Assembly (NCBI RefSeq): GCF_001424665.1
Contig: NZ_LMQS01000002.1
Span: 62,001-126,000 of the forward strand
DNA: 64,000 nucleotides
Direction of reading: 5' to 3'
From: Methylophilus sp. Leaf416
Lineage (GTDB): Bacteria; Pseudomonadota; Gammaproteobacteria; Burkholderiales; Methylophilaceae
This document shows, piece after piece, positions 23,325 through 31,062 of the stretch (the first letter of the stretch is position 1; the number at the start of each line of letters is the position of its first letter). The notes below the pieces were generated by a model. It was not told where the DNA came from, searched no databases, and worked only from the letters and a program-made list of their open reading frames with translations. A program made the translations under genes and the position numbers.

Positions 23325-23494
23325 AAATTTACCTCTATCGTAGTGATAAAATGTGTTAACATTATATTACTATAAATATACAATAAATAACAATATATTT
23401 TAGTCCTTTAGTCTTAGTCAATGTGGGCCATTGTTGTAACACAATGCCCCTCATAGAATTCTCAGTGTCACCACTAACAACAATAAAGAAAAAT

Positions 23495-23650
23495 ATGTTT
23501 CAGAAATTGATTTTTATTACAGGCTTGCTCGCTACAGCAGCAGCTAATGCCGCTTCATCTACTAACTCTCCAGTGCCTGAACCAGAAAGCATTAGCCTGA
23601 TGCTGTTTGGCGTGGGACTGATTGGTGTGATTGTGTTTCGTCAGAAATAG
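23495..23650 (+). CDS. PEP-CTERM micro-protein with almost no mature domain
   Basis: A 51-residue protein that is a signal peptide (residues 1-19, ending TAAANA) joined by only about eight residues (ASSTNSPV) to a complete PEP-CTERM signal: PEPESISLMLFGVGLIGVIVF and RQK. If both ends are processed, fewer than a dozen residues would remain. It could be a remnant of a longer protein whose middle was lost, a decoy for exosortase, or a real micro-peptide. The ribosome site is poor (AATAAAGAAAAAT). An imperfect palindrome lies upstream at 23425-23449. Confidence 0.6.
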   Translation: MFQKLIFITGLLATAAANAASSTNSPVPEPESISLMLFGVGLIGVIVFRQK

Positions 23651-24735: not shown

Positions 24736-25356
24736 TTAAAACTTCCTGAAAGAACCGGTCACCACACCCCAGATTGCAAATTGCATTTTGCCCTGGATGA
24801 GGATAGGTTCATATTTACCTGAAGAGTTGGCCGGCAATAACTTGGGGTCGCCGTTCTTTTGTTTGGCTAAGGTTTTGATGGTGAATTCGCCATCAATCAT
24901 CGCCAGCACGATATCGCCTATCGATGCCTGTTTTCTTTTATTCACAATCGCTTTATCACCGGGCAACAACCCGGCCTCAATCATGGATTCGCCCTGGATA
25001 GTGACAAAAAAAGTATTGGCCGGGTCCTGGATCAAATAGCCATTCGGGTCCATGCGCGACTCTTCATCGCTATCAGCCGGAGATGGCAAACCGGCGGGCA
25101 CTTTGGACTGGTAGAGCGGCAAACTTAAACTATCCAGCGTTTCGGCTAACTGTGCAAATTCACCCACACTATCCAGATTGCCTTCCATCTGGCGCAGCCG
25201 TTGCTTCTTGGCATACGCCTCCAGAAAGCTGGCAATGACCGGCTTTTGACTGTCTGGCACACGGATAACGCTGGTGGCTTCCATGTAAGTACCGGTGCCA
25301 TGCTTGCGGCCTGAACCAGGTCTTTTGCCACCATTTTTCTTGTCTTCTTCACTCAT
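24736..25356 (-). CDS. UmuD-like S24 autoprotease with N-terminal DNA-binding-like extension
   Basis: A 206-residue protein. Residues 80-206 align by eye with UmuD: the cleavage dipeptide Ala88-Gly89 in KVPAGLPSPADSD, Ser124 in QGESMIEAG and Lys161 in GEFTIKTL. Distances of 36 from cleavage site to Ser and 37 from Ser to Lys equal those of E. coli UmuD (24/60/97). Residues 1-75 are extra: a GGKRPGSGRKHGTG arm, then a strand-helix (ATSVIRVPDSQKPVIASFLEAY) that looks like a ribbon-helix-helix DNA-binding unit. It therefore may be a self-cleaving repressor, like UmuDAb of Acinetobacter in principle. No umuC is adjacent; an alpha/beta hydrolase follows instead. Two palindromes sit directly before the ATG, and there is no Shine-Dalgarno. 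Confidence 0.8.
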   Translation of the reverse strand: MSEEDKKNGGKRPGSGRKHGTGTYMEATSVIRVPDSQKPVIASFLEAYAKKQRLRQMEGNLDSVGEFAQLAETLDSLSLPLYQSKVPAGLPSPADSDEESRMDPNGYLIQDPANTFFVTIQGESMIEAGLLPGDKAIVNKRKQASIGDIVLAMIDGEFTIKTLAKQKNGDPKLLPANSSGKYEPILIQGKMQFAIWGVVTGSFRKF

Positions 25357-25361
25357 GGATT

Positions 25362-25398
25362 TTATTGTAACAATAATCAGTTTTTATTGTAACAATAA
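25362..25398 (-). promoter_or_regulatory. tandem 15-bp operators over the UmuD-like gene promoter
   Basis: Two identical perfect palindromes, TTATTGT-N-ACAATAA, at 25362-25376 and 25384-25398, with centres 22 bp apart (two helical turns). On the minus strand the promoter-proximal copy contains TACAAT ending seven bases before the ATG, a suitable -10 for a leaderless transcript. The distal copy contains GTTACA, 18 bases upstream of that -10, a suitable -35. A dimer on either site would block polymerase. Confidence 0.75.
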
Positions 25399-28180: not shown

Positions 28181-29298
28181 ATGGAACTAGTGGTAGCCCG
28201 TCCCGAAGGGTTGTATTGCCCACCTGGCGACTTTTACATTGACCCCTGGCGGCAGGTAGAACGTGCCGTCATCACGCACGGGCATGGCGACCACGCGCGC
28301 ACTGGTCACTCGCATTACCTGGCTGCGGCCGCTGGTGAAGGTATTCTGCGCAAACGCCTGGGTGAAGATATTAATCTGCTGACGCTGGAATATGGCGAAG
28401 TCATCAATCACCATGGTGTGAAGCTGAGCCTGCATCCCGCAGGACATGTGCTGGGTTCTGCCCAGGTGAGGCTGGAATACAAAGGTGAAGTATGGGTAGC
28501 TTCAGGCGATTACAAAGTAGAGCCCGACGGCACCTGCGCGCCGTTTGAAAGCGTACGCTGCCATACCTTTATTACCGAATCCACCTTTGGCCTGCCGATT
28601 TACAAATGGCAGCCGCAGGGCGAGATTTTTGCTGACATCAACCAGTGGTGGCAAAGCAATGCGGATAACAATCGTGCCAGCGTGCTGTTTTGCTATTCTT
28701 TCGGTAAAGCGCAACGGTTGCTGTCCGGGCTAAACCCGCACATTGGGCCGATCCTGGTCCATGGCGCGGTCGAACCCTTGAATAAAGTCTATCGGGAAGC
28801 GGGCGTCAACCTACCAGCCACCCAATATGTCAGCGAAATGCAGGATAAATCTCAGATAGGCAAAAGCATAGTGCTGGCTCCGCCCTCAGCGCAGGGTACA
28901 CATTGGATCAAACGTTTTGGTGATTATTCGGATGCGTTTGCAAGTGGCTGGATGCAGTTACGCGGCACTCGCCGACGTCGTGGTGTGGACCGCGGTTTTA
29001 TTATGTCTGACCATGCAGACTGGCCTGGTTTGCAAACTGCCATTCAAGCCACTGGTGCCGAACGCGTGTTTGTCACGCACGGGCAAGTACACCCCATGGT
29101 GCGCTGGTTATGCGAGCAAGGTCTGGATGCGCAAGGCTTTGTCACCGAGTACGGCGAAGAAGCAGCTGAAGCAGAAACAGACCTGTCACCTGAATCTTCA
29201 GAAAGCAGCCAAATGACAGAGACTGCTTTGCCACCCGAAGCCGGGCTGCCACCTGAGACTGAGGGCAGCGAGCAAATGAACATAGCAAAGGCGACCGT

Positions 29299-29302
<4 letters not shown>
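28181..29302 (+). CDS. ligase-associated DNA exonuclease (MBL/beta-CASP)
   Basis: A 373-residue metallo-beta-lactamase nuclease of the Artemis/SNM1-like bacterial class (TIGR04122). The metal motif is THGHGDHA (32-39), followed by HPAGHVLGSAQ, ASGDYK and SDHADW; FCYSFGKAQRL is the beta-CASP part. It is first in the four-gene repair cluster and overlaps the ligase gene by four bases. The last 45 or so residues (from about 327) are an acidic, Ser/Pro/Glu-rich tail with low complexity (LSPESSESS, LPPEAGLPPETEG) not expected of the core family; it may be a disordered interaction arm. Confidence 0.9.

Positions 29303-31058
<1,756 letters not shown>

Positions 31059-31062
<4 letters not shown>

Follow-up and report, generated by a model that had tools for sequence, protein, structure and literature searches.

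We describe a gene for a long UmuD-type protein of the S24 peptidase family in a 64,000-nt stretch of the Methylophilus sp. Leaf416 genome, hereafter the window (contig NZ_LMQS01000002.1, positions 62,001 to 126,000; G000:C2:62001-126000 in our numbering). The protein is probably a UmuDAb-like, autoregulated repressor that is cleaved upon DNA damage, in a LexA-less betaproteobacterium, and its gene would be distinguished by tandem operators and a hydrolase passenger. A first-pass annotation of the same DNA had proposed a self-cleaving repressor that has tandem operators and a leaderless promoter, and the comparative evidence presented here fits that proposal. The Methylophilus-type source genome comprises 2.94 Mb in 8 contigs and is listed as 100% complete; its nearest named relatives are Methylophilus sp. 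42 and QUAN, at 92% identity.

In the mechanism that we envisage, a UmuD/LexA-type self-cleaving domain is fused to a small N-terminal domain of UmuDAb type, and repressor dimers would bind two GTTAC-centred operators that lie two helical turns apart and cover the -10 and -35 elements. Operator occupancy would hold down expression of the repressor and, with it, that of the alpha/beta hydrolase to which its gene is closely coupled. Upon DNA damage, RecA on single-stranded DNA would trigger cleavage at Ala88-Gly89, the N-terminal domain would lose its dimer and the unit would be expressed. Related boxes precede the two umuDC operons of the source genome, which makes their co-regulation likely, through either the window protein or the long UmuDs that they encode themselves. 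Long UmuDs would be the LexA-like regulators still present in this LexA-less genus. Operator binding, cleavage and damage induction by the window repressor are what we infer from sequence.

The C-terminal domain of the window protein is closest to that of UmuD, the polymerase V accessory protein. The best NCBIfam match of the protein is UmuD NF007621 (108.7 bits, slightly under the cut-off of 110), and the C-terminal part is nearest to UmuD by NF007621, by phrog_811 and by the PDB entry 8gmt (UmuD). The exact UmuD spacing read at first pass was reproduced by a scripted check, with the predicted cleavage site, Ser124 and Lys161 placed 36 and 37 residues apart. Identical intervals occur in UmuDAb of Acinetobacter. 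Our UmuDAb reference, located via a phage collection, is encoded on a contig (L326) recorded under the name 'Acinetobacter phage MD-2021a'; the protein has 203 aa and the published residues Ala83-Gly84, Ser119 and Lys156. This phage-labelled contig (CAKLQH020000001.1, 328 kb) looks chromosomal, with umuDAb near efflux and Lrp-type genes. The window protein differs from UmuD in other respects. The additional N-terminal stretch that had been described is present and amounts to some 65 residues by the E. coli UmuD numbering. As had also been remarked, the window gene is not in an operon with umuC, and the two umuC genes of the source genome that score over the family cut-off sit at other loci. 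At the cleavage site, the window protein has Ala-Gly compared with the Cys-Gly given in a passage of PMC8565304.

The window protein shares 33% identity with UmuDAb across most of its length. A hidden Markov model (HMM) was built from 62 unique Methylophilaceae N-termini, with Acinetobacter excluded from the build, and was searched against 20,027 targets. The UmuDAb N-terminus was matched by this HMM with 49.8 bits (E=1.5e-13), and 20,000 shuffled versions of the latter reached 11.6 bits at best. By these profile scores the two N-termini are homologous, contrary to the first-pass annotation, which had held the domain to differ from that of UmuDAb. In UmuDAb, the N-terminal domain is required for repression and is predicted to be helix-turn-helix-like, according to parts of PMC4807011 and PMC11332147. 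The strand-helix that the first-pass annotation had likened to a ribbon-helix-helix is a putative feature. The window N-terminus matched no Pfam family, and the two matches from a PDB profile search with the N-terminal profile (E=0.2 and 1.7) were taken as chance. The window N-terminus does match phrog_8312 (E=0.0004) and, weakly, phrog_21736 (E=0.034), both small phage families without an assigned function, and the UmuDAb N-terminus matches phrog_21736 with E=9e-12. Because such small phage families match, the domain may also exist without the peptidase. Within the tandem-box clade to which the window gene belongs, the median pairwise ratio of non-synonymous to synonymous substitution rates (dN/dS) was 0.15 for the N-terminal domain, where 37 of 78 pairs were usable; the linker gave 0.22 (17 pairs) and the C-terminal domain 0.06 (44 pairs), the remaining pairs being left out for a dS that was too low or too high.

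The two identical 15-bp palindromes that had been reported over the promoter are present. Both are exact TTATTGTAACAATAA with centres 22 bp apart, and the genome search proposed at the time, now carried out over the 2.94 Mb, returned these two as the only exact copies of TTATTGTNACAATAA. Five bases, not the six first stated, lie between the start codon and the nearer palindrome. Parts of PMC4807011 and PMC11332147 describe UmuDAb as a repressor that undergoes cleavage and binds TTGA(N4)GTWAC(N4)TCAA, and the box of our UmuDAb reference reads TTGAAAATGTAACTTTTTCAA. In a section of PMC11332147, the core matters most for binding and one arm suffices; another study disagreed on the arms. Judged by its letters, the window palindrome is the core of such a UmuDAb-type box, TTGA..GTnAC..TCAA. 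The earlier view that the operator differs from that of UmuDAb finds little support, as the GTnAC centre is the same, and what is left of it is the incompleteness of the arms at the window locus.

This box, defined as a GTNAC core with TTGA/TCAA arms (8 letters) and spacers of 3 to 6, was scored at 94 long-umuD genes, consisting of 91 distinct genes from the fetched loci, UmuDAb and two plasmid genes; twelve S24 open reading frames (ORFs) without the N-terminal motif had been dropped beforehand, together with duplicates. All eight arm letters were found at 33 of the 94 genes compared with 3 of 1880 dinucleotide shuffles, and six or more at 67/94 compared with 97/1880. The commonest spacing among the 67 was N5/N5 (39 genes, for example TTGATTATTGTTACAATAATCAA), followed by N4/N4 as in Acinetobacter (9 genes). 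When genomes across the class were searched for the pattern of the Acinetobacter operator, it turned up in 0 of 369, a set that may have included no Acinetobacter.

Both promoter elements of the first-pass annotation, a TACAAT hexamer close to the start codon and a GTTACA further upstream, lie within the palindromes (Table 1). A consensus promoter scan was by itself at chance level (4 found compared with 3.6 expected in shuffles), so the promoter case rests on conservation. A core and an in-frame start are present in 63 of 67 distinct Methylophilaceae long-umuD genes, the other 4 having no usable core or start; in 49 of the 63, 6 or 7 nt separate the hexamer position from the start codon, which leads us to predict near-leaderless transcripts whose 5' end coincides, or almost coincides, with the AUG. 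The same constancy would be expected if the protein were simply a UmuD that assists polymerase V, its N-terminal extension being irrelevant, and the palindromes merely an extended -10 (TGtTACAAT) that is conserved because the gene is leaderless. The UmuD-like C-terminal domain agrees with that explanation, as does a tree in which 32 long UmuDs are umuC-linked and 11 hydrolase-linked. We nevertheless consider it improbable. In other genera, the arms and the symmetry are kept around a GTAAC or GTCAC core although TACAAT is gone (L037, L029, L033), and the distal copy of the palindrome cannot be the -10 of this gene. The lack of umuC at the window locus, the low dN/dS of the N-terminal domain and its homology to a domain that UmuDAb requires for repression also argue for a repressor.

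The LexA model TIGR00498 matched the window protein below cut-off and over the C-terminal domain only, with no winged helix-turn-helix match. The source genome encodes three S24 proteins, all of them long-form UmuDs with a core box, and none exceeds the LexA cut-off, which was passed in 0 of 120 genomes of the family. Outside the genus, at least 35 of 106 genomes have LexA-model matches that score about 86-105 bits and, beginning at model positions 1-16, cover the winged-helix region. In the 14 genomes of the genus, no LexA-model match starts before position 41, among the matches listed; in the streamlined genera g4 and g121 the matches listed are C-terminal only, and the 12 that were fetched are long UmuDs. 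By these profile searches LexA was not detected in the genus Methylophilus. In a sister genus (G200:C1:1811958-1815535, L176), a LexA-type gene lies near a long umuD on the opposite strand, with a GAACGTTC-type palindrome upstream of umuD.

Since umuDC operons with a short UmuD have the same boxes, and binding by the long UmuD is a prediction from sequence, the palindromes could in principle be operators of another regulator that the long UmuD leaves unbound. We regard this as very improbable. No LexA was detected in the genome, and the UmuDAb-type box was found at 0 of 11 lexA-like genes of other lineages, most of which show by eye a different palindrome, like TGTACGTnCGTACA. Furthermore, the box and the N-terminal domain co-occur on phages and plasmids. 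On the first two of these grounds we also rejected the idea that the box is a LexA box.

Besides the tandem-box window gene, the source genome has core-box long umuD genes at C3:350199 and C2:482808, both boxes lying before umuD and umuC and having full arms, with N5 and N6 spacers. Of the 35 exact TTNTTGTTACAATNA sites listed for 21 genomes of the genus, 34 have a umuD match no more than 400 bp away, the one without being in L232. Some of these umuD genes encode a UmuD without the N-terminal domain. At four loci in three genomes (L226, L227, L229, L230), tandem boxes precede umuD-umuC and the encoded UmuD is without the domain, no trace of which was found within 600 nt upstream of umuD. Because their own UmuD has no such domain, control at these loci would have to come from another protein, and the tandem boxes there point to action in trans. 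The first-pass suggestion of a small damage-controlled switch for an enzyme is therefore too narrow, as the same box class precedes umuDC operons in the genome and the genus.

The link to umuDC leads to a further explanation, a dual role in which the uncleaved long UmuD represses and its cleaved, UmuD'-like C-terminal part serves a UmuC made elsewhere. Most umuC-linked relatives have one box, most relatives with one box are encoded beside umuC, and the cleavage site and C-terminal domain are conserved in both clades, the latter with low dN/dS. The genome has two umuC genes over cut-off that could be served, but each already has its own umuD, and we hold a dual role to be possible, if somewhat doubtful.

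Several observations weigh against the interpretation of the window protein as a UmuDAb-like repressor of these boxes. The window boxes do not have the full TTGA/TCAA arm pair, the best scoring 5/8, with an intact core and a left arm that is mostly kept. The arm score is below 4 at 10 of the 94 genes, some of which show a related GTAC-core palindrome by eye, and a Legionella plasmid gene (L127) has the domain and is boxless by the arm-score measure. At 12/12 loci of the sister genus g4, umuC is boxless and is not linked to the long umuD. In the source genome, two full-arm boxes occur beyond those of the paralogues, making 4 in all compared with 3 in the reversed control, and one-mismatch core sites number 8 compared with 7 for reversed-pattern controls; over the 21 genomes the corresponding counts are 55 compared with 41 and 153 compared with 122. 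As these counts are near control, site specificity rests on the exact sites, and we rejected the notion that a large regulon is demonstrable in the source genome.

The gene coupled to the repressor encodes an alpha/beta hydrolase, as first annotated. It is present in 11 of 21 genomes of the genus (11 of the 17 good ones) in one copy each, and in 11/11 it lies directly behind the tandem-box long umuD. At ten of these loci the two genes are separated by 2 bp and the two cores by 22-23 bp; the eleventh is that of G214. In the tree, the 11 hydrolase-linked long umuDs and the tandem-box genes L139 and L141 form one clade of 13 (support 100/97), and a tandem pair (L239) lies outside it by eye. A single origin of the hydrolase link is not well supported by the tree (75/22). 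The motifs GHSMG (nucleophile elbow) and GHGLPYDEP are kept in the 10 aligned hydrolases, the nearest solved structures of which are esterases and lipases. In G275 and G293 (L045, L142, L143), a single-box long umuD is followed by a tandem-box long umuD with the hydrolase, and umuC lies further on, which places the hydrolase inside an SOS-type gene cluster in these genomes.

We infer that the hydrolase serves the damage response. That it is a mere passenger without such a part is, in our judgement, nearly as probable as not: it occurs in little more than half of the genus genomes, and its fold hints at no repair role. Its invariable position behind a tandem-box long umuD, in differing neighbourhoods, argues for a functional link.

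The window system is UmuDAb-like, with homology in both domains, and is not classed here as UmuDAb because the published operator is incomplete at the locus and no ddrR is adjacent. Both systems combine a GTnAC-centred palindrome at their own promoter with a LexA-less host and umuDC operons of the same box class; of the homologous N-terminal domains, only that of UmuDAb is known to be required for repression. The window sites, each with a GTTAC core, are tandem operators at a near-leaderless promoter, followed by a co-directional hydrolase, and the relatives of the window protein use N5 or N6 spacers beside N4. A search of the locus found no divergent ddrR beside the window gene; in L326, a divergent 78-aa ORF occupies the expected ddrR place and is a putative ddrR. 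The earlier claim that the partner differs from that of UmuDAb holds, with the hydrolase in place of ddrR. LexA shares the repressor layout of an N-terminal domain and a self-cleaving S24 C-terminal domain, and differs in the model matches given above. HdiR and the Bacteroidetes S24 SOS repressors are likewise non-LexA S24 regulators of damage-induced genes; going by their descriptions in parts of PMC8565304, they are set apart as kin of phage repressors with other boxes.

In an order-wide survey of 200 genomes, including the source, at least 27 have a match that reaches the N-terminal domain. A long UmuD with a full box also occurs on an Acinetobacter plasmid and an E. coli plasmid (L328, L329). 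Of 80 viral loci kept, 20 reach the N-terminal domain; after removal of 2 cut loci and 5 duplicates, 13 distinct genes with sufficient upstream DNA remained, and 13/13 have a full box. Among 80 listed viral stretches chosen solely by the Acinetobacter box, 66 have UmuD and 8 UmuC alone within 400 bp, and 6 have neither. In IMG/VR, phage contigs (L380-L442) encode a long UmuD that counts 181 residues from its GG motif, contains this N-terminal domain and is accompanied by a full box.

Passages of PMC11332147 and PMC8565304 treat UmuDAb as a case of Acinetobacter or the Moraxellaceae, with an operator unlike other SOS boxes, and a heading in PMC11332147 calls the operator features unique to Acinetobacter. 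Searches of the open-licence literature showed no paper apparently linking UmuDAb-type repressors with Methylophilus. The present distribution suggests that damage switches of the UmuDAb kind are more widespread than thought. We further speculate, with the balance about even, that the UmuDAb N-terminal domain and the GTnAC box are an old mobile pair on beta- and gammaproteobacterial phages, plasmids and chromosomes, forming self-regulating umuDC operons and replacing LexA more than once (in Acinetobacter, Methylophilus and the streamlined methylotrophs), and that one Methylophilus copy became a stand-alone tandem-operator regulator, with the hydrolase recruited as a damage-induced effector.

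Table 1. Features of the repressor locus (positions within the window)
Feature	Position	Strand	Remarks
Long UmuD-type S24 repressor gene, 206 aa	24736-25356	minus	ATG at 25356; PF00717 E=2e-24
N-terminal domain, residues 1-50 (GGKRPGSGRK ... TSVIRVPDSQ), common with UmuDAb	25207-25356	minus	profile homology
Peptidase_S24 domain, residues 80-199	24760-25119	minus	E=2e-24
Predicted self-cleavage site Ala88-Gly89	25090-25095	minus	invariant in 20/20 aligned
Predicted catalytic Ser124	24985-24987	minus	invariant in 20/20 aligned
Predicted catalytic Lys161	24874-24876	minus	invariant in 20/20 aligned
Proximal predicted operator, 15-bp palindrome	25362-25376		GTTAC core over the -10
Distal predicted operator, identical palindrome	25384-25398		22 bp upstream; 22-23 bp spacing kept in clade
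-10 hexamer TACAAT, preceded by TG	25364-25369	minus	7 nt from ATG
-35-like GTTACA	25388-25393	minus	spacer 18; pattern match only
Alpha/beta hydrolase gene, 292 aa	23855-24733	minus	2 bp behind repressor gene stop

Upstream of the long umuD, on the same strand, lies a DsrE-family gene. At 23423-23650 (plus strand), a small protein with a PEP-CTERM-like tail (VPEPESISLMLFGVGLIGVIVFRQK) is encoded, as judged by eye. About 3 kb from the repressor, the region 28181-31062 (plus strand) encodes a metallo-beta-lactamase-fold protein (PF00753, slightly under cut-off) and then a 587-aa ORF that looks, by eye only, like an ATP-dependent DNA ligase; we take this gene pair to resemble a ligase-associated repair cluster. 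Between umuD and umuC on contig C3 of the source genome (L160:2351-2630), and at L045, L048-L051, L054, L055 and L140, a terminator-like hairpin stands behind the long umuD, followed by a conserved 23-codon ORF on the opposite strand, presumably a PqqA precursor peptide. An Rfam scan of six sources gave a tRNA as its sole match, and a PADLOC scan gave no match.

The two-part system of UmuDAb is now seen in a LexA-less genus of methylotrophs, and on phages and plasmids. Methylophilus species may thus serve as harmless model organisms for an atypical damage switch and as a test case of LexA loss and replacement. A domain without a Pfam match becomes open to comparative study, and an enzyme without a known link to DNA damage gains a predicted damage-controlled promoter.
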